A DNA stretch of 64,000 bases from an uncultured Alphaproteobacteria bacterium (GCA_902826695.1 CADEFU010000003.1:1-64000), one strand, 5' to 3'; shown: positions 14,356 through 36,930, counted from the stretch's first letter. Program-made: numbers and translations. Notes: generated by a model from the sequence alone, not told the origin.

Positions 14356-14459
14356 TTCCCGGGAAGTATTCGGGATCACACAATTGTCAGGCGAATCCGG
14401 CAGAGTTCTGCGGCGGATTCCGCAAGAAATCTTGATCCGTGATTAAGCGGTGGCCTTGT

Positions 14460-14482: not shown

Positions 14483-14527
14483 CTATGTTGGTGTCATCCA
14501 ACGAAGTTTTCCAAGGGGCGTAATCAC

Positions 14528-19916: not shown

Positions 19917-21139
19917 TTCGCGTCGTGCACGTAGCTGCCGGAGAACACGTCGTGCAGCATCTGCCGCCTCTTCGAGGCCAGCGCCATAAGGATACCCAGC
20001 AACGCCGGCGCGACCGACACGATCTTGCTGAAGTTGCGCACGGCAGCCTGAACCAGGCCAACCGGCGCGCCGTCAGTCCCCGACACCCGCAAACCCATGA
20101 CGAGCTTGCCTGGCGACGCCCCGCGCGTCAGCAACCCCTCGGTCAGAATGAGCAGCAGCATGTAAATCGCAAGCGCCGCCGCATACAGCGGCGGCCGTGT
20201 AATCTCGTTCTTGCGTCCACCGTCGAGCAGCGCCTCGCGGCTCGTCTGTTCGCCAGCGCCATTGCGCTTCGTTTCCACCACAGTCCGGCGATAGCTTTGC
20301 CGCACGAAGCCAAGGAAATTTCGCTCCACCGTCGAACGCACCGTCGTACGCGACGTCGTCCCACCATCGGCGATCTCGAACGTGGGCAGATCAGTCGCAA
20401 TCGTCCGCTCGCTCGCGAGCCATGTGAATGGCGCGCCGATCGTGAACAGCGGCCCCGCCTGAGTCGCCACCGCAAGCCCGAAAGCCAAAGCGCAAGCGAG
20501 AAACGCATCGATAATCCCAGCCCCAAGCCGAAGCGGCAGCAACGCTGGCGCTTTCAGCTTCACGGGGGCCTCGCCACGCCCGACCGTCGTCACCCCGATC
20601 GGCAGCGAAGGTGCTGCATCGTGCGCGACGACGAAGACCGGAACCTGCTCGGCGATATTCTTGACCTGCTGATTTCCCATGAAGCTGAAGCCGAGCGACA
20701 GCTTGTTCTTCACCTGATCGTGTACCGAGCCTGAAATCAGAATCCCGCCCGGCGTCGCCAGCCCCTGCAGGCGCGACGCGATGTTCACGCCCTCGCCGAA
20801 GATGTCGTGATCGTCGAGCATCACGTCGCCAAGATTTATGCCGATGCGGAAATCCATCCGCTCGCGCTCTGGCAGGCTCTCGTTCTGAGCTTTGAGCTCG
20901 CGCTGAATCTCGACCGCGCATTGCACGGACTCAACCACGCTGGCGAAGTCGGCAAGCACCGCGTCGCCCGACCAGCTGACCACGCGCCCATGGTGACGTT
21001 CGATAAACGCCTGCATGAGCTCGCGGTACTCCTTCAGCCGCTTCAAGGTGCCGTGCTCGTCCGCACCCATAAGGCGGCTATAGCCGACGACATCGGCGCA
21101 GAAGATGGTCGTGAGCTTACGCTTGACGGAATGAACCAA
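19913..21139 (-). CDS. Class III adenylate/guanylate cyclase fused to RDD membrane domain
   Basis: About 408 residues. Residues ~5-165 form a class III cyclase catalytic domain: KRKLTTIFCADVVGYSRLM (first metal Asp), VVSWSGDAVLADF (second acidic site), RIGINLGDVMLDDHDIFGEGVNIASRLQ (transition-state Asn and Arg). After a linker comes an RDD-type domain: LPLRLGAGIIDAFLACALAFG, a ~95-residue loop, YAAALAIYMLLLILTEGLL, and GASPGKLVMGLRVSGTDGAPVG. RDD proteins are membrane proteins of varied role. The start is uncertain: TTG 21139 fits homologues beginning just before the cyclase fold, while TTG 21199 is the longest reading. It is the first gene of an operon with the TPR-glycosyltransferase. Confidence 0.85.
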   Translation of the reverse strand: MVHSVKRKLTTIFCADVVGYSRLMGADEHGTLKRLKEYRELMQAFIERHHGRVVSWSGDAVLADFASVVESVQCAVEIQRELKAQNESLPERERMDFRIGINLGDVMLDDHDIFGEGVNIASRLQGLATPGGILISGSVHDQVKNKLSLGFSFMGNQQVKNIAEQVPVFVVAHDAAPSLPIGVTTVGRGEAPVKLKAPALLPLRLGAGIIDAFLACALAFGLAVATQAGPLFTIGAPFTWLASERTIATDLPTFEIADGGTTSRTTVRSTVERNFLGFVRQSYRRTVVETKRNGAGEQTSREALLDGGRKNEITRPPLYAAALAIYMLLLILTEGLLTRGASPGKLVMGLRVSGTDGAPVGLVQAAVRNFSKIVSVAPALLGILMALASKRRQMLHDVFSGSYVHDAK

Positions 21140-21259
21140 GAGGGGACCGCATCGAAAACTGGCGTGAGACCGCGCCCTTATAGCGGTGCCGCGAACCAAT
21201 GTGCAGCCTGCCCATAGCGCGCCGCGGCAGGCAGCCCAGAAAATCGCCCTTTTTCAACA

Positions 21260-21309: not shown

Positions 21310-24300
21310 CTAGAAGCGCGTCGTCATGCTGACGAACACTTGGCGTCCCATTGAGTCGTAGACCACCGGATAGGTGTTCGCGTTCCCGAACGGCGGGCTG
21401 GAAATGCCGTGGAACTGCGAGTCGATCAGCGGCGGATCCTCGTCAACGACGTTGTTGATGCCGCCAAGCAGGCGAACGTTGTCCGTGATGTTCCAATCTA
21501 CACCAAGGTCAAAGTAGTCGTACGCAGGGATCGAAGCGTCGCTCAAATCGCCCAATGGTCCACCGGCCGGGAAGTCGAACACCGAACTCGCGCCGCTGTT
21601 CGCATCCAATTCGACGCCGCTGATGTGCCGCCAGGCGACCGTAAAGTTGACATCGAACGGCGCGCTCCACGTCACCCGCGCCTTGTGCTTCCACTCTGGT
21701 ACCGGGTTTCCGCAAACAAGGCCGAAGAAGCCCACGCAGTCAAACGACTCGAACCCGAGACCGTAGTTCGTCTCGGCCTTGTCCACGTAGGTACCTGAAA
21801 AGCCGAGCGTCATCGTGCCTGCTTCGGCGTCCCCAAGATCGAAGCGGTAGTTCGCTTCGACATCGACGCCGCGCGTGTTGACCGTGCCCGAGTTGACCAC
21901 GAGGCTGTCAACGCCCACGCCCAACGTCGTGCTGTTGCTGAGCACGCCCGTGACTGGATCGCGATTGATCAGGGCACACGTCAACGGGTTGTTGTTGACG
22001 GCACAGTCGCCGACGATCGCCGTCTGCGAAATCACCGTAATCTGATCTTCAATTTCGATGTCGTAGTAGTCGATCGTCGCATTGAAGCCTTTGAGGAACG
22101 TCGGCGTGAACACCAAGCCGAACGACTTCGTGTCCGAAGACTCAGGCTTTAGGCTGGCGTTGCCGCCGAACTGGCCAGAACACTGTGCGGCCGGACATTG
22201 GAAGGCGCCGCCGCCGTTCGGATCGGTGAACGCGTTGAACTGCGCCAGCGACAAGCCGGTGTTCGCACACTGCGCTGCAGTGTAGAAGTTCGTGCCTGGG
22301 CTGCTGCTGCTGGTCAGTGCGCACGGATCGGTGCCGCCCCACAAACCCTGGAACGAAGGTGTGAACAGCTCGATCACGTTTGGCGCGCGCACGGCATGCT
22401 GGAACGAACCGCGCAACCTCACGTCGTCGACGGGCATCCATGAGCCCGCATACTTGTAAGTGTGCGTGAGGCCCGAGAGGTCGTAATCGGATATACGATA
22501 GCCGCCGGTGACTTCGACGAGCTTGGCAAACGGCTGATCCTGCAAGATCGGGATCTGCACCTCGCCGAACGCTTCCCAAACGTCGAAGTGACCATCGACG
22601 TTCGGTGTCGCGCCACCTTGGCCCAGCAAGTCGCCGGAGCTGAACACGTCGTCCGAAATGTGCTTCAGGGCATTGAAGCGATACTCCGCACCCAAGGCCA
22701 TCTGGATCGGATCGGCGGCCCACGGACTGGTGGCGCCGATATCGCCGTTCAACGACGCACTGACGATCTGCTCTTCCGTTGTCGTCTTCTGAATGCCGGT
22801 GCCGCTCATATACGCAATGGCTTCGCGCGAGAGTTCACCAAAGCTGAAGATGTTGGCTGGGATACAATTGGCATCCGAGCCGTCGAGCACGGAGGTACAA
22901 ACAGGCTGACCAAGCGTCGGCGAACCGACCCGGTTGTCGATCGCGACCAAAATTGCCCGCTGCGCACGGGTGCGCGACACGTCATTCAAGTAGGCGCGCG
23001 GCGTCGACGTCGTGCCGTACTGGGCATAAACGTCATAGTCCCAATCTTCGATCTGGCCGCGTATGCCGCCGACCAAACGATATGATGTCGACTGGAAATC
23101 GTCCTGGCGGCCGAGGTTCGTCTCGATAAACCGGCGGCCGATATTGACGGTCGCCGTCCCGGTCGTACCGAGATCGACGGGCGCTTGTGACCCGCAAAGT
23201 GCGTTGAGCGGAGTGAACACGTTCAGAACGTTCGTTCCGATCGTGGTCGTGCCTTCGGCAGCGCCCGTGTCGAGAAGTGGGTTGTCGCAGTTTACGAGGA
23301 AGTTGCCGCCGACCGGACCCGAGTTCGCAAAGAAGCCCGAAGCGGCGATCTGAGCGACTGTGCGGTCGTCCATGAAAGAAACGTCGGTGTAGAAATCGAC
23401 ATTGTCGTCGATCTGATAGTGCCCGCTGAAACCGAGCAGGTAACGGTCGTCGGGTCGCTGCAAGAAGTTCGTTGGGTTGAAGTTGAATGTATCCACCGAC
23501 GGCAAGAACTCGCGCAGCGTTCCGGGCGTGCCGGCGTTTGCAGTGAACCGTACGCCGGCATCCGTCGGGGTGATCGCGGTGAATCGACCGGTCGGACCAT
23601 TCGACGAACCCAAGCAGAAGAATCCGCCGGCATCGTCGCTGGCGATCGCGCAGGCCGAGTAGTCGCGCTCCGACTGCAGCAGCGCTTCGGCGTTCCGGTA
23701 CTGGATGTACGCCGTCATGTTGCCTTTGCCATCGGCGCTGTTCGAGCCCATGACGCCAAAGGCCGTGAAGACGCGTCCGTCGTTTACGTGCTTTTCCGGC
23801 ACGCGGAAGTTGGCGCCGGTGACGATGGCGCGCGTAACGGCGTCATCGTTATCGTGATCGTTGATCTGGTACGACGTTCCGACTTCCACGCCTTCGAAGT
23901 TCTTGCGGAAGATGAAGTTCACGACGCCGGCAACCGCGTCCGCGCCGTAGACGGCCGATGCGCCACCCGTCAGCACTTCGACGCGATCGATCATCGCAAC
24001 AGGAATATTGTTCAAGTCGGCGACAGGTGCGGCGATGTTCGCCGGATGCAACCGTTTGCCGTTGATCAGCACGAGCGTGCGGTTCGCGCCCAGACCGCGC
24101 AGGTCGACCGTTGCCGTGCCCGACGAGCCGTTCGAGACTTCCGCACCTTGGGTCGGGTTGACCTGCGGCAAGTCGTTCAGCAGCGTTTCAACCGAGGTTG
24201 TGCCGCTGATCTTCGCTTCGTTGCCGGTGATCGTCGAAACCGGCGACACCGATTTCAGGCCCTTTTGCGGGATGCGCGTACCGGTGACGGTCACCTTTTC

Positions 24301-24399
24301 CACGCTTGGCTCGTCGGCTCGCGCGACACCGGCGCTGAGTACCGTCGCGACCGCAGCCCCGGCCATCAACGTCGATTTGAAAGCTTTTGTTTTCAACAC
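21310..24399 (-). CDS. TonB-dependent outer-membrane receptor
   Basis: The product is 1029 residues with a signal peptide (TLMAGAAVATVLSAGVARA), a TonB-box-like start (EKVTVTGTRIP), a plug domain (SVETLLNDLPQVNP...VDLRGLGANRTLVLINGKRL...IDRVEVLTGGASAVYGADAVAGVVNFI) and a long barrel ending in VFVSMTTRF with the C-terminal Phe. The GTG at 24399 follows AGAAGGGGC, so it is preferred over the TTG at 24420. Receptors of this size in alphaproteobacteria often import glycans or peptides, but the ligand is unknown. It sits between the cyclase/TPR-glycosyltransferase operon and the TPR-hydroxylase operon, divergent from the latter. It has its own terminator. Confidence 0.95.
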   Translation of the reverse strand: MLKTKAFKSTLMAGAAVATVLSAGVARADEPSVEKVTVTGTRIPQKGLKSVSPVSTITGNEAKISGTTSVETLLNDLPQVNPTQGAEVSNGSSGTATVDLRGLGANRTLVLINGKRLHPANIAAPVADLNNIPVAMIDRVEVLTGGASAVYGADAVAGVVNFIFRKNFEGVEVGTSYQINDHDNDDAVTRAIVTGANFRVPEKHVNDGRVFTAFGVMGSNSADGKGNMTAYIQYRNAEALLQSERDYSACAIASDDAGGFFCLGSSNGPTGRFTAITPTDAGVRFTANAGTPGTLREFLPSVDTFNFNPTNFLQRPDDRYLLGFSGHYQIDDNVDFYTDVSFMDDRTVAQIAASGFFANSGPVGGNFLVNCDNPLLDTGAAEGTTTIGTNVLNVFTPLNALCGSQAPVDLGTTGTATVNIGRRFIETNLGRQDDFQSTSYRLVGGIRGQIEDWDYDVYAQYGTTSTPRAYLNDVSRTRAQRAILVAIDNRVGSPTLGQPVCTSVLDGSDANCIPANIFSFGELSREAIAYMSGTGIQKTTTEEQIVSASLNGDIGATSPWAADPIQMALGAEYRFNALKHISDDVFSSGDLLGQGGATPNVDGHFDVWEAFGEVQIPILQDQPFAKLVEVTGGYRISDYDLSGLTHTYKYAGSWMPVDDVRLRGSFQHAVRAPNVIELFTPSFQGLWGGTDPCALTSSSSPGTNFYTAAQCANTGLSLAQFNAFTDPNGGGAFQCPAAQCSGQFGGNASLKPESSDTKSFGLVFTPTFLKGFNATIDYYDIEIEDQITVISQTAIVGDCAVNNNPLTCALINRDPVTGVLSNSTTLGVGVDSLVVNSGTVNTRGVDVEANYRFDLGDAEAGTMTLGFSGTYVDKAETNYGLGFESFDCVGFFGLVCGNPVPEWKHKARVTWSAPFDVNFTVAWRHISGVELDANSGASSVFDFPAGGPLGDLSDASIPAYDYFDLGVDWNITDNVRLLGGINNVVDEDPPLIDSQFHGISSPPFGNANTYPVVYDSMGRQVFVSMTTRF

Positions 24400-24772
24400 G
24401 GCTTCGCCCCTTCTGCGCAAAAGCGCCTAGAATCCCAGAGACGCACATGGCGCCCACATCCGATTCGCTCACTGCTTTGGGCCGTATCATTCTTTTTACG
24501 AATGAGCGGCTGTTCCCCAGAGAATCGAATCATCCCTCTTGAGTGCGATTAGAGCGCGATTGAAAGTGACGTCCACGCTTTCACGGTTCGCGCGGTGTAG
24601 AAGGCAATCGCTTGTGTCGCGTTTGCATCAAGAGTCGCGCTGCAACCTGATCAACACGTCAGTCAAGAAATGTTTGTGTGCGGATCGTTTCCAAATAGAG
24701 TGCTCGCAATGATGCGTAAAAGCGTACCGCGGCGTGCATCGCAAGCTCAGCAACAGGGCGAGGTGTAGATCG
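24400..24772. other. 373-bp divergent intergenic region, no gene
   Basis: This lies between the start codons of the TonB receptor (minus) and the TPR-hydroxylase (plus). It is more A/T-rich than its surroundings (for example ATCATTCTTTTTACGAATGAG near 24487-24507) and has no convincing ORF, tRNA or hairpin. It should hold both divergent promoters. I see no clear consensus promoter. Confidence 0.6.
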
Positions 24773-26044
24773 ATGAGTGCACTGAACAATCTGATCGACT
24801 CAGCCCGCCGCGCCTCGCGTGCAGGCCGTCCTGACGAGGCTGCGCGCGCTTGGGAGAGAGTGCGCGAAACGGCCCCCGACAACGCCGAAGCAAACGCCTT
24901 CTTCGGCCACCTCGCACTGCGCCAGGGCGATCCGCGCAGCGCGATCGAGTGGCTTGAGCGAGCTGCGCGCGCCGCGCCGCGGGACGCGCTGATACCCTTA
25001 GGGTTGGCGAATGCGCATCGCATGCTTGGCGATGGCGCGGGCGAATTGGCGGCCTTCGACGCTGCGTTGAAGGCTGACGCTTACTGCTACCCAGCGTTAC
25101 TCGGAAAGGGTGCTCTGCTCGAGCGCCTCGGCCAGAGACGCCAGGCCGCCAGAGCCTTCACCGATGCCCTAAAGATAACGCCGGCCGAGGAACGCCTCTC
25201 GCCAGACCTGCGCGCGCTCGTGCAACGCGCCCGCGCTGCGGCCAGCGAAAACACCGCCTCACTCAACGGCTTTATCGAACAAAGACTCGGCAGACTGCGC
25301 GAGCTGCACACGGGCCAGCGCCTCGACCGGTTCGACGAATGCAAAGATGCGATGACCGGTGCCAAGAAGATCTACACGCAACAGCCCGTGATGCTGCACT
25401 TCCCACGCTTGCCCGCAATCCAGTTCTGCGACGACGCGGCCTTCCCCTGGCTAGCCGATCTTGAGGGCCACACGGCGACGATCGAAAACGAACTGAGCGC
25501 ACTACTCGATGCACGCGCGCCAGGCTTCCGCCCCTACATGAACCACCCGGACGGCGTACCGCTGAACGAGTCGGCCGCGCTGAACCGTTCGCCCGATTGG
25601 AGCGCCTACTTCTTCTGGGACGACGGCGCACGCGTTGACGCTAACTGCAGCCGATGCCCTAAGACCGCGGCCATCCTCGACGAGATGCCGCTGGCCGAGG
25701 TACCGGGATTCACGCCCGCGGCGTTTTTCTCATCGCTCACCCCCGGCGCTCGCATCCCGCCACACACGGGCGTCACCAACACGCGCCTGATCGTGCACCT
25801 GGGCCTGACTGTGCCGGACGGCTGCACGTTTCGTGTTGGCAACGACACGCGCGCCTGGCAACGGGGGAAAGCGTGGGTTTTCGACGACACGATCGAGCAC
25901 GAGGCGCACAACGCGAGCGCCCAAACCCGGGTCATCCTTATCTTCGACATCTGGAACCCGTACCTCTCACAAGCAGAGCGCGAACTTGTCTGCGCGCTTC
26001 TCGCGGCCCAGCGCGAGTACTATGCAACTGATTCCGCCCCCTAA
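24773..26044 (+). CDS. TPR protein with aspartyl/asparaginyl beta-hydroxylase domain
   Basis: A 423-residue protein. Residues ~1-150 are TPR-like helices (SARRASRAGRPDEAARAWERV, NAFFGHLALRQGDPRSAIEWL, YPALLGKGALLERLGQRRQAA). Residues ~210-410 match the AspH-type 2-oxoglutarate/Fe(II) hydroxylase. His331 (PPHTGVTNTRLIVHLGL) and His376 (DDTIEHEAHN) correspond to the two iron histidines, and the conserved end RVILIFDIWNPYLS is present. The role would be hydroxylation of Asp/Asn in a protein or peptide target selected by the TPRs. The ATG at 24773 is chosen over 24734 because AGGGCGAGG precedes it. It is the first gene of an operon with the sulfotransferase and PKHD oxygenase. Confidence 0.88.
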   Translation: MSALNNLIDSARRASRAGRPDEAARAWERVRETAPDNAEANAFFGHLALRQGDPRSAIEWLERAARAAPRDALIPLGLANAHRMLGDGAGELAAFDAALKADAYCYPALLGKGALLERLGQRRQAARAFTDALKITPAEERLSPDLRALVQRARAAASENTASLNGFIEQRLGRLRELHTGQRLDRFDECKDAMTGAKKIYTQQPVMLHFPRLPAIQFCDDAAFPWLADLEGHTATIENELSALLDARAPGFRPYMNHPDGVPLNESAALNRSPDWSAYFFWDDGARVDANCSRCPKTAAILDEMPLAEVPGFTPAAFFSSLTPGARIPPHTGVTNTRLIVHLGLTVPDGCTFRVGNDTRAWQRGKAWVFDDTIEHEAHNASAQTRVILIFDIWNPYLSQAERELVCALLAAQREYYATDSAP

Positions 26045-26062
26045 CGCGGACGAGCGAGTTCG

Positions 26063-27604
26063 ATGTCGGCCCCCTTATCGCCCCAAGCCTTCAACGCCAG
26101 TTTCACCGAGGCCAAGCGTCTGCATTTCGAGGGTCACTTCGACCGCGCGCGCCACATCTATCAGGACATCGCGGCACGAAACCCCGCGGAGCCCGCCCCA
26201 CACATGATGCTGGCCGAACTCGACATGCGTGATGGGCGACTCGTAACAGCGCGCAAACGGCTTGAAGCCGTCATAGAGCAACATCCGCACCTGAAGGCGC
26301 CTCGCACCGCGCTCGCGGGCCTCGCCGAAGAACTGGCCGACGCGCCGGTCGCCCTCGCGCTCTATCGCCAGGAGGTGGACGAAGCTCCAGGCGACCCCGG
26401 TGCGCAAGCCAGGCTAGCGACGGTGCTGCGCCTTTACGGCCGGCTCGACGAAGCCAAGGCGATGTTTGAACGTCTGGCGAAGGACTGGCCCGAGGCATCT
26501 GGCGGCTATCTCGGTCTGGCCGCCATCGACGAGGCCGCACTTACCGAAGAGCACATCGCCAAAATGAAGACGATGGCGGAGGCTCCGAAGACAAGCCTGC
26601 CCGAGCGCGTACAACTCTACTTCGCACTCGGCGACGTTTGGGATCGCCAGAAAGAATACGACAAGGCGTTCGCCGCCTACGACACGGCCAACCGCCTGCG
26701 TCGCGAGAACCTGCACGAGCCCTTCGACGATCCCGTCGCAAGAAGCCTGATGCCCAAGACACCGGACACCCCCACGACCGTCGCGCAAGCCGAAGCGGAG
26801 CTCAAAGCCTTTTTGGGCGGCATGCGTGAGATGTTCACCAAAGAGTACATCGCGCACTTCTCGGGCGGCGGACTTACCACGGACGCGCCGATCTTCATCG
26901 TCGGCATGCCGCGCTCAGGCTCGACCCTGCTTGAGCAAATCCTCTCAAGCCATCCGCAAGTCACCGGCCTCGGCGAAACGAAAGCGCTGAGCCATTCGTT
27001 CCGCAAACTCATGCCGGTCTCGCGCGCCCAAATCACCGAGGACTTCAAGCGCACGTTCTACCGCCGCGTCGGCGAGACCTATCTCGAAGCTATGCGCGAG
27101 CGGGGCTGGAACGGCCAGGGCAGGGTCATCGACAAAATGCTCGGCAACTTCGCGAACGTCGGCATTATTCACCTCGCGTTCCCGAATGCCGTCATCATCA
27201 ACAGCATGCGCGATCCCGTAGACACGTGCTTCTCCTGCTTCCGCCAGACGTTCAAAGACCGCAACGAAACCACATACGATCTGGGCGCCGTGGGCCGCCA
27301 GTATGTGATGTATCGCCAGACTCTGGATCACTGGCAGAAGGTGCTCCCAGGCCGCGTTCACAACGTCCAGCACGAAGCTTTGCTCGCCGATCCTGAGGCC
27401 GAAATCCGAAAGCTCCTGGTCGCCTGCCGCCTCGAGTGGAACGACGCCTGCCTGCGCTTCTACGAGACCGACCGGCCCGTGCGCACGGCCAGCGCATCGC
27501 AAGTGCGCCATCCCTTGTTTAAAACCTCGGTGGCGCGTTGGAAGCCGTATGTGCAATATTTGACCCCGCTCATCGAGGCCTTGGGCCCCTACGGACCGCA
27601 CTAA
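26063..27604 (+). CDS. TPR-sulfotransferase fusion protein
   Basis: The product is 513 residues. The N-terminal ~250 residues are TPR repeats (AKRLHFEGHFDRARHIYQDIA, PHMMLAELDMRDGRLVTARKR, LFRLG-type pairs). The C-terminal half is a sulfotransferase-fold P-loop: IFIVGMPRSGSTLLEQILSS (residues ~276-295, the PAPS 5'-phosphosulfate loop), then RVIDKMLGNFANVG, NSMRDPVDTCFSCF (3'-phosphate region) and HNVQHEALLADPEAEIRKLL. It would transfer sulfate from PAPS to a sugar or tyrosine-type acceptor; the acceptor is unknown. It starts 18 nt after the hydroxylase gene and ends 17 nt before the PKHD oxygenase GTG, all on one strand. Confidence 0.9.
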   Translation: MSAPLSPQAFNASFTEAKRLHFEGHFDRARHIYQDIAARNPAEPAPHMMLAELDMRDGRLVTARKRLEAVIEQHPHLKAPRTALAGLAEELADAPVALALYRQEVDEAPGDPGAQARLATVLRLYGRLDEAKAMFERLAKDWPEASGGYLGLAAIDEAALTEEHIAKMKTMAEAPKTSLPERVQLYFALGDVWDRQKEYDKAFAAYDTANRLRRENLHEPFDDPVARSLMPKTPDTPTTVAQAEAELKAFLGGMREMFTKEYIAHFSGGGLTTDAPIFIVGMPRSGSTLLEQILSSHPQVTGLGETKALSHSFRKLMPVSRAQITEDFKRTFYRRVGETYLEAMRERGWNGQGRVIDKMLGNFANVGIIHLAFPNAVIINSMRDPVDTCFSCFRQTFKDRNETTYDLGAVGRQYVMYRQTLDHWQKVLPGRVHNVQHEALLADPEAEIRKLLVACRLEWNDACLRFYETDRPVRTASASQVRHPLFKTSVARWKPYVQYLTPLIEALGPYGPH

Positions 27605-27621
27605 GCAACGGAAATCGTCTC

Positions 27622-28287
27622 GTGTTTCTTCAAATCAAAGACCTGCTTACGCCCGCAGAAGTCGCGCGCCTGACCGCGCTTAGCAAAGAGCTGCGCTTCG
27701 TCGACGGACGTGTATCGAACCCGGCCAACCATACGAAGGAAAATCTGCAGGCCGATCGCGGCGATCCGAAGTACGCAGAGTCCGTACAAATCGTGCAAGC
27801 GGCGATGGGCAGGTCGCAGCCCTTCATTGACTTCGCCATGCCACGGCGCCTCGCCCCACCGCTACTATGCCGTTATGAGCCGGGCATGAAGTACGGCATT
27901 CACGGTGACTCGGCCACGATCGCGACGCAGAACGCGCGCATGCGCTCGGACGTATCCGTCACGATCTTCATATCGCCGCCGTCGACCTACACGGGTGGCG
28001 AGCTTTCGATATCGGTCGGCGACCGCACGCTCGAGTTCAAGGGTGAGCCCGGCAGTGCGATCGTCTACGCTTCGACGACGCTTCACGAGGTAAAGCCGGT
28101 AACGGCCGGACAGCGTTTGGTCTCGATCACCTTCATCGAGAGCCTCATCGCCGACCAGCACAAGCGGATGCAGGTCTATGAGCTCGGCGAAATTGGCGCG
28201 CTCGAAGGCTTCAACATCGGGTGGGAAAACCGCGTGCGCCTCGACATCGTGCGCCAAAACCTCATCCGAATGTGGGCGACCTACTAG
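27622..28287 (+). CDS. PKHD-type Fe(II)/2-oxoglutarate hydroxylase
   Basis: A 221-residue protein matching the PiuC/Sbp-like PKHD hydroxylases (about 225 residues). The iron triad is His94-x-Asp96 (YGIHGDSAT) and His155 (STTLHEVKPV), with Arg165 (GQRLVSITFIES) for 2-oxoglutarate. SDVSVTIFISPPSTYTGGELSI is the typical core. The GTG at 27622 is used, because homologues start at FLQIKDLLTPAEV and CGGAAA lies upstream; the longer 249-residue reading overlaps the sulfotransferase. Last gene of the plus-strand operon. Its TAG shares the palindrome CTAG with the stop of the convergent gene. Confidence 0.9.
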   Translation: MFLQIKDLLTPAEVARLTALSKELRFVDGRVSNPANHTKENLQADRGDPKYAESVQIVQAAMGRSQPFIDFAMPRRLAPPLLCRYEPGMKYGIHGDSATIATQNARMRSDVSVTIFISPPSTYTGGELSISVGDRTLEFKGEPGSAIVYASTTLHEVKPVTAGQRLVSITFIESLIADQHKRMQVYELGEIGALEGFNIGWENRVRLDIVRQNLIRMWATY

Positions 28288-29354
28288 GACTGGGATCCAA
28301 ACCGTTCGACGACGCGCGCTACGGATGGGTTAGCGGCCGCGATCCCGTCAAGCCAAGTCAACCCGGCGCGGATCTCTTCGCCGTTCTGCGCCCGTGACTG
28401 CGCCAGGACTTGCGCGCGCAATTGCGGCGAGTACGCGTGCTCCGGCCCCTTCGCATAGCGCGATAGAACAGGGCTCTGCCCGATCCCCGCCAGATAGGCC
28501 GCGTCATGCGCAACACCCAAATGCCGCACAATCCGCGCCATAACACCTGCGACATCGCCCAACAGCGCATCGAAGTCGATCGCCAGAACACGCTCGCCGC
28601 CCGCCTCGCGCGCGTTCTGTTGCGACCACGTCTCCGCAAGCCAACTCATCGCCGCCAGCTTGCCGGGCGAAAGCTGATGCAGGGCCGGCATCTCAGGCGC
28701 GCCGAAACGAACCAACCGCCGGATACGCTCGCCTGCGTGCCCGCGCAGGTCGGCCACGCTGTTGGGTCCGCCCAGAAGCGTCGCCAGATAAGGCGCGGCG
28801 CGGACATTCAAGTATACCGCCCGCGCCGCCGTTTGACGCGCGAGCAGCAGCGGCGCAAGGCGCCCAGCCGAACTTGTAGCTTTAAGAACGACCGTGCGTG
28901 CCTCGGGAAATCCCCGTCCCCAAACCCGCAGCAGCGTTGTCAGCAAAACGTCGAAGTCTTCCTGGCTTAAGAGCGACTCCGGCAACCCTAGCGCGTCGTG
29001 CGCGTCGGCGACCTGGCGCAACGTCATCGGTTCGCGCAGACCTAGCACGCCGCCCGCTTCATCGATCAGCCGGCTGACCAGCGTCGATCCGACATGGCCG
29101 GTGTGAAAGATGAAGTGCAGAGCGGGGTTCACGGGGACGGTCCGCGCCGCGTCGATCAATCGCCGCAAGCCAACCCATACCCCTTCGCTCACGGATGATA
29201 GGATCCGGTCGTCGAGAAAGCTCGCATTCCGATGGGCTTGCGCGTCGAACCCGACTAGCAGCGCCCGTCCGCGCACCACGTCGATGCTCTGAACGAGAAC
29301 GCCGGCCGACGCGCCGAGGCGTTGGATGAGAGCGTTCGCGGTGTCTTGGTTCAT
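28284..29354 (-). CDS. P-loop, sulfotransferase-like protein
   Basis: The product is 356 residues. The clearest feature is FIFHTGHVGSTLVSRLID (residues ~81-98), a phosphosulfate-binding-like P-loop of the kind seen in divergent sulfotransferases, followed by LGLREPMTLRQVADAHDAL. VVLKATSSAGRLAPLLL and VLAIDFDALLGDVAGVMARIVRHLG also fit that fold. No Walker B or other NTPase motif is evident. The acceptor is unknown. The ATG at 29354 lies 4 nt after the stop of the TPR-oxygenase gene, so they are one operon. The C-terminus overlaps the convergent PKHD gene by 4 bp. Confidence 0.65.
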   Translation of the reverse strand: MNQDTANALIQRLGASAGVLVQSIDVVRGRALLVGFDAQAHRNASFLDDRILSSVSEGVWVGLRRLIDAARTVPVNPALHFIFHTGHVGSTLVSRLIDEAGGVLGLREPMTLRQVADAHDALGLPESLLSQEDFDVLLTTLLRVWGRGFPEARTVVLKATSSAGRLAPLLLARQTAARAVYLNVRAAPYLATLLGGPNSVADLRGHAGERIRRLVRFGAPEMPALHQLSPGKLAAMSWLAETWSQQNAREAGGERVLAIDFDALLGDVAGVMARIVRHLGVAHDAAYLAGIGQSPVLSRYAKGPEHAYSPQLRAQVLAQSRAQNGEEIRAGLTWLDGIAAANPSVARVVERFGSQS

Positions 29355-29358
29355 CGCG

Positions 29359-31203
29359 TCAATACGCCATCGCAGCCAACGTGAGCGGCTCGGTATCGCC
29401 GGGCACGACATCGAACGCAATAGTCAGCCGGTCATCCTGCGACTCGAACGGCACCGTCCCGTGCCAGAAGTACGAGGGAAACAGCACCAGCTGTCCGACC
29501 ACCGGCTGCACGAAATGCTCCGGCTGGTCATGCCCGCCAAGCTCAAGATGAGATTGCCCGAACTTGAGCCAGCCCTGCTGCTGCTCCAATTGCGGCACGC
29601 TGACATAGTAGGCCGAACTGATCCACCCCATCGGATGGACGTGGTTCGAATGAAACCCGCTTGAGCGCAGTTTGCACGACCACGAGTGTGTGAAAGTCCA
29701 CGTGTCCTCTTTGCGCGACAGCAGCGGATGGTCCGTCCGCACCTCCATCGCGCGAACATATTCATCGACAGCCGCCGCGATCTGTTCGCGCACCTGCGCG
29801 ATCGCGCGCGTCTTGCGGTTGAACAACAATCCTTCCGTCTGCGTTCCGCCATGCAACGTCTGGTCCAGCGGTTCGGCTTTGGTCGTGTGCAGTGCGGCGA
29901 GTTCCTCGGCGACTGCGCGATTGAATGAAGCCGCATCCGCATAACCCTGCGGCACGCGCAACGGGTAGGAGCGCACAAACGCCTCAGGATCGACGAGCTT
30001 TTGGTACCGGCTGTCGCCAAGCGCGCGATAGGCAAGACAAAGACCGCCCAGCGCAAGTTGATCGACCGGGTTGGTCCGCCGCGCCGCTTCGAACTGGATC
30101 AGCGCCTGCCGCGCCTCGCCGCCCTGCAGCAGCGCATAGCCGAACTCGTTGCGAAAGGCGCCGAAGTTCGGCTCCGCCCGAACCGCCTGTGAGAAAACCT
30201 CGAAGCACTCGTCGAACCGCTTACGCCGCGCAAGGACGCGTCCGAGCAGCGCGCTCGTATCCGCGCGTCCCGGCGTCAATTCCAATGCGCGCCGCAACAG
30301 CGGCTCAGCCCCCGCCTGATCGTTGCGCTGCATGCGAAGCTGCGCCTCCGATGTCAGCAGCAGCGCGTCTTCCACGCCGCGATCGCGCGCAAACGCAAAA
30401 GACCGTAAGAACAGATCTTTCCGCCCCGCCATCCACGCAAGCCGGTTGACCGCTTCGTGCGCAGACACATCGGAGGGCCTCAACTCCACGAGCTGCCAAT
30501 GCACGCCAAGCGCGTCGTCCAGCTTGCCCGCACCGCGAAGGCCGTTCGCAAGCGCAGTGAGTGCTTCCGTGCTTTCCGGCCGCAACGCGGCCGCCGCGCG
30601 CAAGGTCTCGACCGCCTCGTCGAACTGCTCCAGTTGCGCGAGCGCGAGACCCCGATAGTAGTGCGCCTCGAAACTCGCCGCCGTCCTGAGTGCCGCGTCT
30701 AGCGCATCGAGCGCTTCCGCTGCCCGCTCCAAGCCGATCAGAAGCGCGCCAATCCGCACTTGAGCCGCCGGGTTGGGATAGCCGCGCGCGACGGCGCCGC
30801 GATACGCGGCAAGTGCCTCGTCGCCGCGGCCGGCATCTTCAAGCACGACACCAAGATTGTACGATGCCTCGCCGAAGGACGGGTTGAGCGTCAGCGCCTT
30901 GCGATAGCTCGCCTCGGCATCCGCAAGCCGTTCGAGATTGCGCAACACGTTCCCGAGATTGCTGTGCAACGCAGCCTCTTGCGGTGCCGCAGCGATCGCT
31001 CGGCGCAGCAATCCTTCAGCCTCGCTGAACGCGCCGCGTTCCTTTCGCACGAGCGCAAGCCGCGCGAGCAGGGCAGGCTGCCCAGGATGCGCCGCCAGCA
31101 ATTGCCGGTACGCAGCCTCTGCCGCGTCCAGCTCACCACGTTCTTCGAAGGCCTGCGCCTCCGCGAATTGTTCCTGCGCCCGCAGGGTTGCACCGCTGCT
31201 CAT
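29359..31203 (-). CDS. TPR protein with C-terminal 2OG-Fe(II) oxygenase domain
   Basis: A 614-residue protein. Roughly residues 1-400 are TPR repeats (LRRAIAAAPQEAALHSNLGNVLRNLERLADA and similar). The C-terminal ~170 residues match the TIGR02466-type putative 2-oxoglutarate oxygenases: SNHVHPMGWISSAYYVSVP supplies an H-x-H pair (~521-523), YFWHGTVPF the distal His (~581), and DDRLTIAFDVVPG the Arg (~592). It is the first gene of a minus-strand operon with the sulfotransferase-like protein. Together with the AspH- and PKHD-type enzymes this gives three Fe(II) hydroxylases within 7 kb. Target unknown. Confidence 0.85.
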   Translation of the reverse strand: MSSGATLRAQEQFAEAQAFEERGELDAAEAAYRQLLAAHPGQPALLARLALVRKERGAFSEAEGLLRRAIAAAPQEAALHSNLGNVLRNLERLADAEASYRKALTLNPSFGEASYNLGVVLEDAGRGDEALAAYRGAVARGYPNPAAQVRIGALLIGLERAAEALDALDAALRTAASFEAHYYRGLALAQLEQFDEAVETLRAAAALRPESTEALTALANGLRGAGKLDDALGVHWQLVELRPSDVSAHEAVNRLAWMAGRKDLFLRSFAFARDRGVEDALLLTSEAQLRMQRNDQAGAEPLLRRALELTPGRADTSALLGRVLARRKRFDECFEVFSQAVRAEPNFGAFRNEFGYALLQGGEARQALIQFEAARRTNPVDQLALGGLCLAYRALGDSRYQKLVDPEAFVRSYPLRVPQGYADAASFNRAVAEELAALHTTKAEPLDQTLHGGTQTEGLLFNRKTRAIAQVREQIAAAVDEYVRAMEVRTDHPLLSRKEDTWTFTHSWSCKLRSSGFHSNHVHPMGWISSAYYVSVPQLEQQQGWLKFGQSHLELGGHDQPEHFVQPVVGQLVLFPSYFWHGTVPFESQDDRLTIAFDVVPGDTEPLTLAAMAY

Positions 31204-31338: not shown

Positions 31339-31686
31339 ATGCGCTTAGCTGTTGTATTGGTATCGGTACTCGCGTTGGGCGGCACCGCCACGCTAGGTTG
31401 GGTCAGCCCGCAAGCGGAAGCGTCGCCAAAGGTTTGCTTGAAGTTCCGCGATCTTCAGGGGCTAAAGCGCGTGGGCGAGCGTACATTCATCGCCAACACG
31501 AGATACAGCAAAGGCAAGTATCTCGTGACGATGCGCGACGCCTGCCGCAGCCTCGAGGACCTGGACAACTTCTACACGGTACGCCTGTACAGCGACCGGG
31601 AGTGCTTTGACGGGGACGACGTGCTCGTTTTCCGATGGGGTGGCTCGTGCTCCGTCGAAAGCGTCGTACCGGCGCCCGCCAACTAA
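31339..31686 (+). CDS. Small exported DUF6491-like protein
   Basis: A 115-residue protein starting at 31339 after a strong AGGAGG. It has a signal peptide (LAVVLVSVLALGGTATLGW...AEA). The mature part has four cysteines in a pattern (VCLKFRDLQG, MRDACRSLEDL, SDRECFDGDD, GGSCSVESV) typical of small secreted proteins classed as DUF6491 in Caulobacterales-type genomes. Function is not known. A strong terminator follows at 31706. Longer upstream extensions of the frame cover the antisense of the TPR gene and are not coding. Confidence 0.8.
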   Translation: MRLAVVLVSVLALGGTATLGWVSPQAEASPKVCLKFRDLQGLKRVGERTFIANTRYSKGKYLVTMRDACRSLEDLDNFYTVRLYSDRECFDGDDVLVFRWGGSCSVESVVPAPAN

Positions 31687-31744: not shown

Positions 31745-33457
31745 TTACGAGTTCCACCACTTCTGCCAGGCCTCGTAGCTGAACCACGAGCCGAGCCAGG
31801 ACCAGAACCCACCCTCCGACGCCTGCGCGCCTGAATCGCTGCCGCTGTTCGCGGCGGTGTCGGCTGGCTTTTCGCCGATGTCGAGCCAACGCGTGCGGTT
31901 GACCCCGCGCGCCGTCTCTTCCCAGTTCAGCACATGCGACTTCACCAACGGCCGGATGAATTGGAAGAACGTCGGTGACACCGCGACATCGTTGATGAGA
32001 AGGCCCGCCGCTTGCCCCAGCAGCTTGCCGCGCGCCGCCGCATCCTTTTCGTTGTCCGACTGGTTCATCAACGCGTCGAAAGCGGGGTTGTTGTAGCCGG
32101 GGTAGTTCAGCTGTTGCGTGGTACTCTGAAACAGAAACAAGACGCTCTGCGCATCGTTGTAGTCGAACACCCAGCCCGCTTCGCCGATTTCAAAGTTCGC
32201 CGTTTTGAGCCCGTCGTAGTGGATCGCAAAGTCCTTCGCTTGCAGCTCGATCTTGACGCCCACGTCCTTCCACATCGCCTGCATCGCAATCGCAGCACGC
32301 TTCGTGTCGGGCCGGTTGATGAAATTGTAGCTCAGCCGCAACGGGTTCTCCGGCCCAAAGCCTGCAGCCTTCAGCAAAGCGCGGGCCTCCGCCTTGCGCT
32401 CGTCCATCGTCTTGCCCGACCACGGAACTTTCGCCGACCGGTCCACATTCGCCATGCCGGGCGGCAGAACGGTCTCGGCGACGAGGCCATGCACGCCGAA
32501 ATAGACCTCGCGCTGGATCGCTTCGCGGTCGAGCGCCATGGCAAGCGCGAGCCGCACCCGTTTGTCGTTTAGCGGCGCCTTGCGCATGTTGAACACGGTG
32601 TAGAGGACACGCAGACCCGGATACTTCCGCGTCTCGTTCGGCACGTTTGCAAGCAGCCATTTGTGCTCGGCGAGCGGCCAGCGATCCGCGGTATCCAACT
32701 CGCCCGCGCGATAACGCTTCAGTGACGATTGCTCATCCGTCGACGGGTAGAAGAACACCTCGTCGATCTTCACGTTCGCCGCGTCGAAGAAGTGCGGGTT
32801 GCGTACCAGCTTGATCCGGTCGTGCGCCCGCCGCTCGGTGAGCATGTAGGGCCCATTCGAGACCATGTTGCCGGCCTTCGTCCAGTCCTTCTTCCACTTC
32901 TCGATCGTGTGCTTAGGCAAAGGGAACGTCGAGTAGTGCGTCATCATTTCCGGCAGATAGGGGGCTGGATGCTCCAACTGGATGACGAACGTTTTCGCAT
33001 TCGGTGCACTGACCCCGAGCGCGGTCGTCGGCATCTTGCCGGTGTTGACGCTCTCGGCATTCTTGATCGGGTAGAGAATGCTTGCGTACTCCGATGCCGT
33101 CGCCGGATCGAGAATGCGCCGGTATGAGAAAACAAAATCTTCCGCCGTCACAGGTTTGCCGTCGGACCATTTGTGATCGCGGATCGTGAAGGTCCACGTC
33201 AAACCGTCGGCTGACGCCTCGGCTTTCTCGGCGGAGCCCAAGATCGGGTTGCCCTTCACGTCTTCTGTGTAGAGCCCGACGAACATGTCGCCCAAGATTT
33301 GGTTCTCGGGGTCGCCCGACGCCTCGTGCGGATCGAGCCCCTTGGGCTCCGCGCCGTTCCCGCGATTGAGAACCTTCGCCGCCGACGCCGGCAACGCGAT
33401 CGCCGCGCACAGCACCAGCGCAGTTACCAGTCGAAGCAACCGGTGACGCAACAACAT
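31745..33457 (-). CDS. Peptide ABC transporter substrate-binding protein (copy 1 of 3)
   Basis: The product is 570 residues of the SBP_bac_5/OppA family. It has a signal peptide (LVTALVLCAAIALPASA), the start AKVLNRGNGAEPKGLDPHEASG, and the family core WTFTIRDHKWSDGKPVTAEDFVFSYRRILDP. It binds peptides or similar solutes in the periplasm. The ATG at 33457 follows GGGAGGTCTAAG. An unusual linker (SGSDSGAQASEGG) leads to an aromatic C-terminal tail WLGSWFSYEAWQKWWNS, shared with the other two copies. It is the last of three tandem paralogues and probably serves oppBCDF at 37.7-41.7 kb. Confidence 0.92.
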   Translation of the reverse strand: MLLRHRLLRLVTALVLCAAIALPASAAKVLNRGNGAEPKGLDPHEASGDPENQILGDMFVGLYTEDVKGNPILGSAEKAEASADGLTWTFTIRDHKWSDGKPVTAEDFVFSYRRILDPATASEYASILYPIKNAESVNTGKMPTTALGVSAPNAKTFVIQLEHPAPYLPEMMTHYSTFPLPKHTIEKWKKDWTKAGNMVSNGPYMLTERRAHDRIKLVRNPHFFDAANVKIDEVFFYPSTDEQSSLKRYRAGELDTADRWPLAEHKWLLANVPNETRKYPGLRVLYTVFNMRKAPLNDKRVRLALAMALDREAIQREVYFGVHGLVAETVLPPGMANVDRSAKVPWSGKTMDERKAEARALLKAAGFGPENPLRLSYNFINRPDTKRAAIAMQAMWKDVGVKIELQAKDFAIHYDGLKTANFEIGEAGWVFDYNDAQSVLFLFQSTTQQLNYPGYNNPAFDALMNQSDNEKDAAARGKLLGQAAGLLINDVAVSPTFFQFIRPLVKSHVLNWEETARGVNRTRWLDIGEKPADTAANSGSDSGAQASEGGFWSWLGSWFSYEAWQKWWNS

Positions 33458-33487: not shown

Positions 33488-35167
33488 TTACGAATTCCAC
33501 CACTTGGACCAGGCGTCTGCACTGAACCAAGACGAAAGCCAGTCCCAAAACCCGCCGCCTGATGCTTGCGGCGCCGCATCCTTGCGCGGCGCAATGTCCA
33601 TCCAACGGATACGATTGACCGCGTTTGCGTTCTCAACCCAATTCAACACATGCCCTTTCACGAGATGGCGCGCATACGGAAAGGTAAGCGGCGCCACCGG
33701 CACGTCGTTTAGCAGCGTCGCGTGAGCTTGGCCCAAAAGCTGCGCGCGCTTTGCGCCGTCCGGCTCCTTGTCGGCCGCCGCCAGAAAGCCTTCGAACACG
33801 GGGCTGTCATAGGACGAGTTGTTCATCTGCACGGCCGCCGCTTGGAACTGGAAGAACATGTTCTTCGCGTCGTTGTAGTCCATGCTCCACGTGTTGTAGG
33901 TCACTTCGAAGTCGCGCTGCTCCAGCAGTTTCCAGTGCACCTTCGCCTCGGCGCTGGCGAGTTCGACCTGAACGCCGACCTCTTTCCACATCGCCTGCAA
34001 CGCAATCGCCGACCGCTTGATATCGGGGTTGCCGATATAGCGATACGTGAGCCGAAGGGGTTTGGCTTCTGTAAAACCGGCCTGCGCGAGCAGCTTGCGC
34101 GCCTCGGCCCGCCGCGCGTCGATCGCCATTCCCGCCCACGGCACTTTCGCGGCGAGATCGACATTCGCCGTCCCGGGCGGCAATAGCGCGTCGGCCGGAT
34201 CGCCATAGACGCCTTGATAGATGTCCCGCGTCAACGAGACGTTGTCGATCGCCATCCCAAGCGCCTTGCGCACGCGCAAATCGTCGAACGGCTTCTTCAA
34301 CATGTTGAACGAGACGAAATTGGTCGAGAGCTGCGTCGTTCGTTTCGCCTCGTCGGCAATGTTTTGGCTGAGCCACCTGTATTCCGAAACCGGCCAGCGT
34401 TCCTGCGAGTCGAGTTCGCCCGCGCGATAGCGCTTCAGCGCGGCGCTATCGTCGGACGTCGGAAAGAAATTGACCTCATCGATCTTCACATTTGCCGCAT
34501 CGTAGAAGCGCGGGTTCTTCACCAGCTTGATGTGGTCGTGCGGCCGCCACTCGGCGAGCTTGTAAGCCCCGTTGACGACCATGTGCTGCGCGCGCGTCCA
34601 GTCGTCCTTATGCTTTTCGATCACGTGACGGGGCAACGGATAGGTCGTGTAGTGGTTCAAGAGTTGCGGCAAGAACGCGGCCGGGTGCTCAAGTTCGATG
34701 ACAAGTGTCCGTTCGTCCGGCGCTTGTACGCCGAGCTTGTCGACCGCAACCTGGCCCTTGTTCACCTTCTGCGCGTTCTTCAGCGGATAAAGCACCGACG
34801 CATACTCGGCCGCCATCTTCGGGTCGAGCACGCGTCTCAGCGCGAAGACAAAGTCGCCGGCCGTGACGGCAACGCCATCCGACCAAGTATGCGGCCGGAT
34901 TTTGAAGGTCCACGTAAGGCCGTCCTTCGACGTGTCTACGCTTTCGGCGGCACCAAGAATCGCATCCCCGGCCGCATCCTCCGTGTAGAGACCAAGGAAC
35001 ATCTCGCCGAGAATGTGGTTCTCCGCGGTAGACACCGCCCGGTGCGGGTCGAGGCTATGAGGCTCCGCCCCGTTGCCGCGGTTCAAAACCTTCGCGGCAA
35101 ACGCGGGGCCCGCCAGCACGACACTGGCGAGCACCAAAACAACCCAAGCAAAGAAACCGCGGCGCAC
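33488..35167 (-). CDS. Peptide ABC transporter substrate-binding protein (copy 2 of 3)
   Basis: A 559-residue SBP_bac_5 paralogue: signal peptide (AWVVLVLASVVLAGPAFA), AKVLNRGNGAEPHSLDPHRAVS, then WTFKIRPHTWSDGVAVTAGDFVFALRRVLDP. The GTG at 35167 lies 2 nt after the stop of copy 3; a GTG at 35185 would overlap copy 3 and add six residues before the signal, so the shorter form is chosen. Its tail, WLSSWFSADAWSKWWNS, is recognisably homologous but more diverged than those of copies 1 and 3. It is in one transcription unit with the neighbours. Confidence 0.92.
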   Translation of the reverse strand: MRRGFFAWVVLVLASVVLAGPAFAAKVLNRGNGAEPHSLDPHRAVSTAENHILGEMFLGLYTEDAAGDAILGAAESVDTSKDGLTWTFKIRPHTWSDGVAVTAGDFVFALRRVLDPKMAAEYASVLYPLKNAQKVNKGQVAVDKLGVQAPDERTLVIELEHPAAFLPQLLNHYTTYPLPRHVIEKHKDDWTRAQHMVVNGAYKLAEWRPHDHIKLVKNPRFYDAANVKIDEVNFFPTSDDSAALKRYRAGELDSQERWPVSEYRWLSQNIADEAKRTTQLSTNFVSFNMLKKPFDDLRVRKALGMAIDNVSLTRDIYQGVYGDPADALLPPGTANVDLAAKVPWAGMAIDARRAEARKLLAQAGFTEAKPLRLTYRYIGNPDIKRSAIALQAMWKEVGVQVELASAEAKVHWKLLEQRDFEVTYNTWSMDYNDAKNMFFQFQAAAVQMNNSSYDSPVFEGFLAAADKEPDGAKRAQLLGQAHATLLNDVPVAPLTFPYARHLVKGHVLNWVENANAVNRIRWMDIAPRKDAAPQASGGGFWDWLSSWFSADAWSKWWNS

Positions 35168-35169
35168 TC

Positions 35170-36930
35170 TTACGAGTTCCACCACTTCTGCCAGGCTTCA
35201 TAGCTGAACCACGAGCCCAACCATGACCAGAAGCCGCCCTCCGACGCCTGCGCGCCGCCGCCAGGCCCGCTTGCAGTCCCCGCAGGTCCGGTCTTCTCGC
35301 CCAAGTCCATCCAGCGCGACCGGAAGATCGAGCGCGGGTTCTCGACATAGTTCAACACATAGGGCTTCACCAGCGTCCGCTCGAACGGATGGAACACTGG
35401 CGCCACCGGCAAGTCGCGCATCATGAGCGCGTGCGCTTGACCGAGCAATTGCCCGCGCTTCGTGCCATCGGGCTCCATGTCGGCGCGTTCCATCAACGAG
35501 TCGAACTCAGGGTTCTTGTACCCTGGATAGTTCTGCTGATCCGTCGAGCTTTGGAACAGGTAGAGCATGTTCTTCGCGTCACTGTAGTCATAGACCCACG
35601 CCGCGTTGGCGGCCTGGTAGTTCTTCGTCTTCAGCGTCGTGTAGTGAACCTGCGCCTCGGTCGGAATGAGTTCGATCGATGCGCCGATTTGCTTCATCAT
35701 CGACTGAATAGCAACCGCCGAGCGCTTGGCATCGGGGTTGTTGACGTAGTTATACGTGAAGCGAAGCGGGTTGCTGGGTCCATACCCCGCGGCCGCGAGA
35801 AGTTGCTTCGCCTCCGCCCGTCGCGCGTCCATCGTCATGTCGGCATAAGGCACTTTCGACGACGCATCGACGCCATCCAGCCCCGGCGGCAACAGCCCGA
35901 CGGCCTCTTTGCCGTAGGCGTTGAAGAACACGTCGCGTGCGATCGACTGACGGTCGATCCCCATGGCGACCGCTTTGCGCACGCGAATGTCGTTGAACGG
36001 CTTCGTCGTCATGTTGAACGTCGTGTACGAGACCGACAGATACGTGAAGCTGCGTGCTTCGTTCGGGATGTTCTCGCGCAGCCACTTCATCTCGGTCAGC
36101 GGCCAGCGATCCTGCATGTCCATCTCACCGGCGCGATAACGCTTCAGCGCCGCCAAGTCGTCCGGCATCGGCAGGAACTGCACGCGGTCGAGCTTCACGT
36201 TTGCCGCGTCATAGAACTTCGGATTCTTGACAAGCGTAATGTGATCGTGCGGCCGCCACTCCAGCAGCATGAACGGTCCGTTCGACACCATGCGCCCAGG
36301 CTTGATCCAGTCGCTCTGATGCTTCTCGACGACGTGCTGCGGAATCGGGAATGAGGTGTAGTGGGTCAGCAATTGCGGCAAGAACGGCGCGGGATGCTCA
36401 AGGTCGATGATCAGCGTATCCGCGCTGGGCGCGGTTACGCCCAGTTGTTCTACCGGAACCTCGCCCTTGTTCACCTTCCGGGCGTTCTTGATCGGGTATA
36501 GAACTTCGCTGTACTCAGCCGCGAACTTCGGATCGAGGATCCGCCGCAACGCAAACACGAAATCGCCGGCAACGACCGGCTTACCGTCCGACCACCTGTG
36601 CGGCCGGATGTGGAAGGTCCAGCGCAGTCCGTCAGCCGACGTCTTCGCATCGTCGGCAGCGCCCAAGATCGGTTGAGCGTCCGCTGCCTCTGTGTAGAGG
36701 CCCATGATCATGTCGCCGATGATGTTGTTCTCCCACGTGCCGCTGGCACGGTGCGGGTCGAGGCTCTTCGGCTCGCCGAAGTTGCCGCGAATGAGTTCCT
36801 TCTCGGCGCGCGCCGGCGCGGCGAACGCGAGGGCTGCAAGAACGATCAAAAAGCTGAGCCAGGCGAGAACTGTCCACCCATCGTTGTGCGCGGCGCGAGC
36901 GCGGGCCTGCGCACGTTTCGGTCTGCTCAT
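35170..36930 (-). CDS. Peptide ABC transporter substrate-binding protein (copy 3 of 3)
   Basis: A 586-residue SBP_bac_5 paralogue and the first gene of the tandem array. The N-terminus is basic and long (MSRPKRAQARARAAHND) before the hydrophobic segment LSFLIVLAALAFAAPARA, then ELIRGNFGEPKSLDPHRASG. The core WTFHIRPHRWSDGKPVVAGDFVFALRRILDP is intact. The last ~28 residues (GAQASEGG plus the aromatic tail) are identical to those of copy 1, though the bodies differ. The ribosome-binding site is GGGAGA before the ATG at 36930. Confidence 0.92.
   Translation of the reverse strand: MSRPKRAQARARAAHNDGWTVLAWLSFLIVLAALAFAAPARAEKELIRGNFGEPKSLDPHRASGTWENNIIGDMIMGLYTEAADAQPILGAADDAKTSADGLRWTFHIRPHRWSDGKPVVAGDFVFALRRILDPKFAAEYSEVLYPIKNARKVNKGEVPVEQLGVTAPSADTLIIDLEHPAPFLPQLLTHYTSFPIPQHVVEKHQSDWIKPGRMVSNGPFMLLEWRPHDHITLVKNPKFYDAANVKLDRVQFLPMPDDLAALKRYRAGEMDMQDRWPLTEMKWLRENIPNEARSFTYLSVSYTTFNMTTKPFNDIRVRKAVAMGIDRQSIARDVFFNAYGKEAVGLLPPGLDGVDASSKVPYADMTMDARRAEAKQLLAAAGYGPSNPLRFTYNYVNNPDAKRSAVAIQSMMKQIGASIELIPTEAQVHYTTLKTKNYQAANAAWVYDYSDAKNMLYLFQSSTDQQNYPGYKNPEFDSLMERADMEPDGTKRGQLLGQAHALMMRDLPVAPVFHPFERTLVKPYVLNYVENPRSIFRSRWMDLGEKTGPAGTASGPGGGAQASEGGFWSWLGSWFSYEAWQKWWNS

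Follow-up and report, generated by a model that had tools for sequence, protein, structure and literature searches.

A TonB-dependent receptor and an optional, shuffled cassette of putative protein-modifying oxygenases and sulfotransferases in Proteobacteria

Introduction

The eukaryotic secretory pathway is regarded as the main setting in which exported proteins are hydroxylated and sulfated on tyrosine, RaxX being the well-studied bacterial case of sulfation. Genes of PiuC/YbiX hydroxylases are known neighbours of TonB siderophore receptor genes, and tetratricopeptide repeat (TPR) arrays usually bind peptides. Here we describe a locus encoding relatives of several such proteins. It lies at positions 24773-31203 of a 64,000-nucleotide stretch of DNA, hereafter the window, from an uncultured Alphaproteobacteria bacterium (GCA_902826695.1, CADEFU010000003.1:1-64000), and comprises five genes, with products P1 to P5, beside the gene of a TonB-dependent receptor. 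Comparison across genomes showed the receptor to be the constant member of this neighbourhood and the modifier enzymes to be an optional cassette whose content is shuffled.

Several described systems come closest. Human AspH (PDB 6yyu, 5apa, 5jtc) combines, like P1, a TPR superhelix and a double-stranded beta-helix oxygenase in a single chain, with a two-His iron site and Arg, Ser and His residues binding 2-oxoglutarate (2OG); P1 differs in having no evident membrane anchor, no known substrate of the epidermal growth factor (EGF) type and uncharged residues in place of the Lys666/Arg688 pair, and its gene adjoins that of a TonB receptor. The tyrosylprotein sulfotransferases (TPSTs) TPST1 and TPST2 (PDB 5wrj, 3ap1) are resembled by P2 in sequence and by P4 in predicted fold, both having, as in TPST, a Glu 21 residues past the Arg position of the loop that binds 3'-phosphoadenosine 5'-phosphosulfate (PAPS). 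Unlike TPST, P2 is fused to TPRs and P4 carries a His (His95) at the PAPS-binding Arg position. In contrast to the RaxST/RaxX system, the P2/P4 locus includes neither a RaxX-like substrate nor a RaxAB exporter, and its genes are tied to a TonB receptor. Finally, P3 passes the family cut-off of the PiuC/YbiX hydroxylases (180.3 bits on NF003974, PKHD Fe2+-dependent dioxygenase, cut-off 143) and matches the solved structures of Sbal_3634 (3dkq, E 6e-30) and PiuC (9qn1); the residues of its HxD...H motif could be located in the sequence. It is set apart from PiuC/YbiX by the convergent pairing of its gene with a sulfotransferase-fold gene, seen even where no receptor is present (L023, L027).

Results

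Two convergent gene sets beside a TonB receptor gene

Five open reading frames (ORFs) were confirmed in the interval, with the receptor gene to their left:

24773-26044, plus strand: P1, TPR-AspH-like Fe(II)/2OG oxygenase, 423 aa; TPRs and PF05118 (Asp_Arg_Hydrox), E 3e-44
26063-27604, plus strand: P2, TPR-sulfotransferase, 513 aa; TPRs and PF13469 (Sulfotransfer_3), E 9e-44
27538-28287, plus strand: P3, PKHD-type Fe(II)/2OG oxygenase, PiuC/YbiX/Sbal_3634-like; PF13640, NF003974 above cut-off
28284-29354, minus strand: P4, sulfotransferase-fold protein (STL) by predicted fold, ATG at 29354
29359-31203, minus strand: P5, TPR-2OG-Fe(II) oxygenase, 614 aa; PF13759 (E 3e-22) after a long TPR array
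21310-24420, minus strand: TonB-dependent receptor, about 1030 aa, likely GTG start at 24399; PF00593, E 8e-31, and PF07715, E 4e-21

The P3 frame opens at 27538, its true start being uncertain and probably past 27580. Since P5 and P4 are spaced by 4 nt and the stops of P3 and P4 overlap by 4 nt, the genes form two convergent operons. ORFs, Pfam and NCBIfam matches and structural models all bear out the first-pass annotation of this DNA, which had described two such operons with three Fe(II) oxygenases and two sulfotransferase-like proteins, three of the five with TPRs. The TonB receptor and the TPR-glycosyltransferase that it had placed upstream are present as well, the latter at 17712-19916. 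The receptor gene is divergent from P1 and is followed on its own strand by genes for a cyclase/RDD protein and the TPR-glycosyltransferase. The solved structures closest to the receptor match it over the plug only (BtuB), and no Rfam match was found for an RNA element around its gene. By-eye inspection of the N-termini of P1 to P5 revealed no evident signal peptide, which makes cytoplasmic action most likely.

The receptor is constant and the enzymes vary around it

In the window's genus, most genomes having the block keep its gene order; in the family's other genera these genes recur reshuffled. A TPR-AspH alignment used to scan 84,980 species genomes yielded at least 536 relatives, and the best 80 loci were fetched. 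These 80 come from alpha-, beta- and gammaproteobacteria; a receptor lies within 10 kb in 53 of them, a TPR-sulfotransferase is present in 30, a TPR-2OG oxygenase of the P5 type in 29 and a TPR-glycosyltransferase in 14. When loci were pooled, a TonB receptor of about 1000 aa was found within 8 kb of 73 of the 103 decidable TPR-AspH genes, the chance expectation being 5-20% (genomes with 10-40 receptors). TPR-AspH homologues thus recur near TonB receptors in other genomes, a co-occurrence that the first-pass annotation had proposed looking for, rather than being scattered with no conserved neighbourhood. Linkage is seen in most deep branches of the TPR-AspH tree. A well supported clade of 65 takes in most of the linked receptors and leaves out the other receptors of about 1000 aa in the window's genome (L244, L245). 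Annotated records show the linkage in other compositions: TonB, TPR-sulfotransferase, TonB in Novosphingobium; TonB, K1 (a small exported protein, see below), AspH in Polymorphobacter; and a run of TonB, sulfotransferase-2, AspH, TPR-sulfotransferase and sulfotransferase in Asticcacaulis. In the plasmid of Asticcacaulis sp. DW145 (L289, 4117-11985) the AspH of this run is a stand-alone domain, and the genes lie beside phosphonate genes. TPR-sulfotransferase genes considered by themselves were near TonB receptors above chance in two of three single genomes (P 0.007 and 0.002; third genome, P 0.08).

Ascertainment was countered by searching 96 genomes of the family for the receptor and then fetching the loci without TPR-AspH. 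The receptor is present in 47 of the 96 genomes versus 26 of the 27 with a strong TPR-AspH (phylogeny ignored), the lone exception having part of a receptor at the end of a contig. Among 38 receptor loci without TPR-AspH, about a quarter have a TPR-sulfotransferase and the rest mostly have no modification gene. TPR-AspH therefore appears to need the receptor and the receptor not to need the modifier, an asymmetry to be expected of enzymes whose target is the receptor or something linked with it. Genomes of the sister genus often have the receptor in a single slot, tlyA-dxs-xseB-(histone deacetylase-like)-TonB-[variable]-sppA. Four of them (G064, G016, G052, G026) have an empty variable part and three (G017, G041, G029) have one or two TPR-sulfotransferases there; in others it contains a TPR-sulfotransferase and TPR-AspH, in some cases joined by TPR-2OG, STL and PKHD genes.

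Because enzyme content at the same slot ranges from none to several, the modification steps look optional. Accordingly, of the multi-step modification system tied to a TonB receptor that the first-pass annotation had envisaged, the recurrent set of putative enzymes is supported and the fixed pathway is not; nor is there support for glycosylation as a core step, given the 14 of 80 loci noted above. The slot also invites the view that independent genes gather in an insertion hot spot by sppA, in a vertically inherited neighbourhood and with no shared function. That the sppA-side slot is kept across genera of the family while its enzyme content varies would fit this view, as would the occurrence of STL alone beside nusG. 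Yet the same pairing is found in other orders and classes and with other flanks, is also plasmid-borne, and extends to a stand-alone AspH domain that is very different; together with the presence of the receptor in nearly every genome having TPR-AspH and a linkage already seen in most deep branches, this makes a mere hot spot very improbable.

Public annotations reading "tetratricopeptide repeat-containing sulfotransferase family protein" and "aspartyl/asparaginyl beta-hydroxylase domain-containing protein" beside TonB receptors denote the same families in the same neighbourhood. The open literature, a scope that leaves out most subscription journals, yielded no function or description for the TonB-linked TPR-sulfotransferase/AspH set, in keeping with the first-pass remark that no described system with such a set is known; no description was found there of TonB receptors with SapC/halogenase clusters either.

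Three neighbouring genes on the receptor side complete this part of the window:

19913-21199, minus strand: adenylate/guanylate cyclase and RDD membrane protein; PF00211, PF06271
17712-19916, minus strand: TPR-glycosyltransferase-like protein, accessory, downstream of the receptor; TPRs and a weak Glyco_transf_9 match
14450-16300, plus strand: SppA (Peptidase_S49) signal-peptide peptidase, one border of the receptor/cassette slot; PF01343, E 7e-63

The sppA gene is near the cassette in 32 loci. The cyclase/RDD neighbour is a genus-level feature, kept in the window's genus and in G008.

P1 is AspH-like in predicted fold but probably does not hydroxylate Asp

Human AspH is the nearest solved structure to the catalytic domain of P1 by sequence (PDB search, E 4e-31). 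The AlphaFold model of P1 (predicted local distance difference test, pLDDT, 95.4) aligns over residues 1-410 with the TPR-plus-oxygenase chain of human AspH (Z 24.3, 334 residues) with a root-mean-square deviation (rmsd) of 13.7 Å. A differing hinge angle between the two proteins would fit this high value; the catalytic domains alone superpose with an rmsd of 2.1 Å over 189 residues at 31% identity. Human active-site equivalents were taken from PMC6817910. In all 42 of 42 P1 homologues, H331 and H376 (iron site), S320, H342 and R386 (2OG-binding) and the equivalents of human Arg686 and Asp721 are invariant. Sequence and model together identify P1 as AspH-like in fold and, by its predicted active site, in chemistry.

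In human AspH, Lys666 and Arg688 form salt bridges with the side-chain carboxylate of the target Asp, and the TPR domain is required for substrate hydroxylation (PMC6817910). Neither position carries a Lys or Arg in any of 111 readable bacterial homologues, the first being mostly M, F, L or V and the second mostly I, V, L or T. As both equivalents are uncharged throughout, hydroxylation of Asp by P1, and hence beta-hydroxy-Asp as its product, seems unlikely from these alignments.

P2 and P4 resemble tyrosylprotein sulfotransferases

By sequence, P2 matches a protein-tyrosine sulfotransferase (PDB search, E 1e-5), and its R284, E305 and K358 are spaced much as in TPST; for P2 and P4 alike we took R78, E99 and K158 of TPST2 to be the reference residues. 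P4 has no match in Pfam or NCBIfam, nor by sequence in PDB. Its AlphaFold model (pLDDT 86.5) is nearest to human TPST1 (Z 17.7; next other family, Z 14.5), so that P4 is, on the evidence of the model, a sulfotransferase-fold protein closest to tyrosylprotein sulfotransferase. E116 and K166 are invariant across the P4 family. An APS kinase is encoded in the window's genome, so PAPS can probably be produced.

Members of both families also occur elsewhere. In many genomes of the sister genus an STL gene lies without the cassette beside an apparent nusG/rplK/rpoB region (L028-L037). The window's genome has a second TPR-sulfotransferase gene adjoining another TonB receptor gene and a third near an autotransporter gene (L238, G000:C10, 3224-10267). 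In L234 (G045:C13, 1135-15310), three TPR-sulfotransferases have an apparent type II secretion set nearby, together with two exported proteins of which one contains a kelch motif.

The substrate of the enzymes could instead be a small molecule or a lipid, for example lipid A or ornithine lipid, the targets of LpxO and OlsC, while the receptor imports an unrelated nutrient. OlsC and LpxO are indeed the best NCBIfam matches of P1, at 95 of 450 and 71.5 of 500 bits, both far under cut-off; the hydrophobic pocket of P1 could accommodate an acyl chain, and sulfotransferases often act on glycans. We nonetheless consider a lipid or small-molecule substrate decidedly unlikely, as P1's closest solved relative is human AspH both by sequence and by full-length fold, TPR domain included, the P4 fold is nearest to a protein-tyrosine sulfotransferase, and three of the enzymes bear TPR arrays of a usually peptide-binding kind. 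The first-pass idea that the arrays choose a common scaffold gained no support from their similarity: the TPRs of P1 show no notable similarity to those of P2 or P5, and among the arrays compared the only clearly alike pair is that of P5 and the TPR-glycosyltransferase.

Small exported proteins and candidate substrates

One small exported protein is encoded 6 kb from the cassette in the window:

37157-37714, plus strand: K1, with C..RLACYD and an NGQVWRQ domain

The K1 cluster comprises 28 loci, in most of which the gene is beside TonB/AspH genes, and in alpha-, beta- and gammaproteobacteria alike the family (weak VasI match) recurs by TonB/TPR-AspH genes. Modules also contain a second recurrent family of small exported proteins, VCK..TGSR..R.C.T..EW (L025:8781-9188, L174:13649-14014, L215:15291-15638). 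Several genomes of the window's genus have a further small exported protein, DUF6491-like (31339-31686, plus strand), adjoining the cassette. This neighbour and the small "C.TGSR" protein were considered as one conserved substrate family and rejected, since their sequences differ.

The joint presence of a TonB receptor, sulfotransferases and oxygenases, and the recurrence of K1 and the VCK..TGSR family, raised the question of a ribosomal peptide, for instance a metallophore or signal, that is hydroxylated and sulfated, exported, and re-imported through the receptor, as with methanobactin. A short-ORF scan of the module loci disclosed no precursor-like ORF common to most of them, K1 and the VCK..TGSR family occurring in subsets only. 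When the loci were considered for a RaxX-type precursor with a peptidase-ABC exporter, no such common precursor and no recurrent linked exporter emerged; no dedicated exporter or peptidase is linked except SppA, which also borders enzyme-free slots. The window has no Fur box of the E. coli type (E. coli consensus), and the loss of the Asp-gripping Lys/Arg pair argues against a beta-hydroxy-Asp iron ligand. A re-imported peptide is, on balance, unlikely.

A tentative model of surface-protein modification

We propose that the TonB receptor is accompanied by a cassette, optional and shuffled, whose enzymes work in the cytoplasm and modify an exported surface protein, a reading to which we give somewhat less than an even chance. 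The cassette would consist of two TPR-guided oxygenases and one TPR-guided sulfotransferase, plus a PKHD oxygenase and a second sulfotransferase of TPST fold. In the cytoplasm, ahead of Sec export, the TPR arrays would grip an envelope protein bound for export by an unfolded stretch or peptide segment, while the catalytic domains attach hydroxyl (2OG/Fe) and sulfate (PAPS) groups and so change surface loops, in steps that are presumably independent rather than sequential. The most likely target would be either the receptor or a partner at the surface, for example a K1-type protein; that the receptor is a substrate we infer from linkage only. The turnover of enzymes around a constant receptor suggests surface diversification, as read from gene content: gain and loss of enzymes may diversify the exposed surface, serving evasion of phages or bacteriocins or the tuning of ligand binding.

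Several observations weigh against this proposal. The receptor clade of 65 was sampled through TPR-AspH hits, so that its tight linkage is partly ascertainment; the receptor is often without enzymes nearby; and in Caulobacterales one group of TPR-AspH genes lacks a TonB gene nearby. No residue convincingly separated enzyme-linked from enzyme-free receptors, two weak columns being all that was seen, and the EGF-type AspH consensus C-x-[DN]-x4-[YF]-x-C showed no enrichment (5 of 67 enzyme-linked versus 1 of 19 other receptors). Taken together, the lack of a distinguishing residue and of consensus enrichment implies that any modified sites would have to be in variable loops, or else in a partner.

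In its fullest form the proposal would make the locus a bacterial counterpart of secretory-pathway decoration, in which cytoplasmic TPR oxygenases and TPST-like enzymes hydroxylate (at a residue other than Asp) and sulfate loops of the receptor or its partner ahead of their export, with the set being swapped between species and changing recognition by phages, bacteriocins or ligands. This extended version we regard as doubtful. The recurrence of the set in alpha-, beta- and gammaproteobacteria suggests an undescribed route of decorating bacterial surface proteins. If so, many unassigned "TPR-sulfotransferase" and "aspartyl hydroxylase domain" genes would acquire a testable role, and modified outer-membrane proteins would be predicted in the culturable genera Luteimonas, Duganella, Phenylobacterium, Sphingomonas and Asticcacaulis.

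Other genes in the window

Beyond the cassette, the minus strand encodes three tandem oligopeptide-binding proteins (31745-33457, 33488-35185 and 35170-36930) that have in common a Trp-rich C-terminal tail, GGFW.WL.SWFS..AW.KWWNS.

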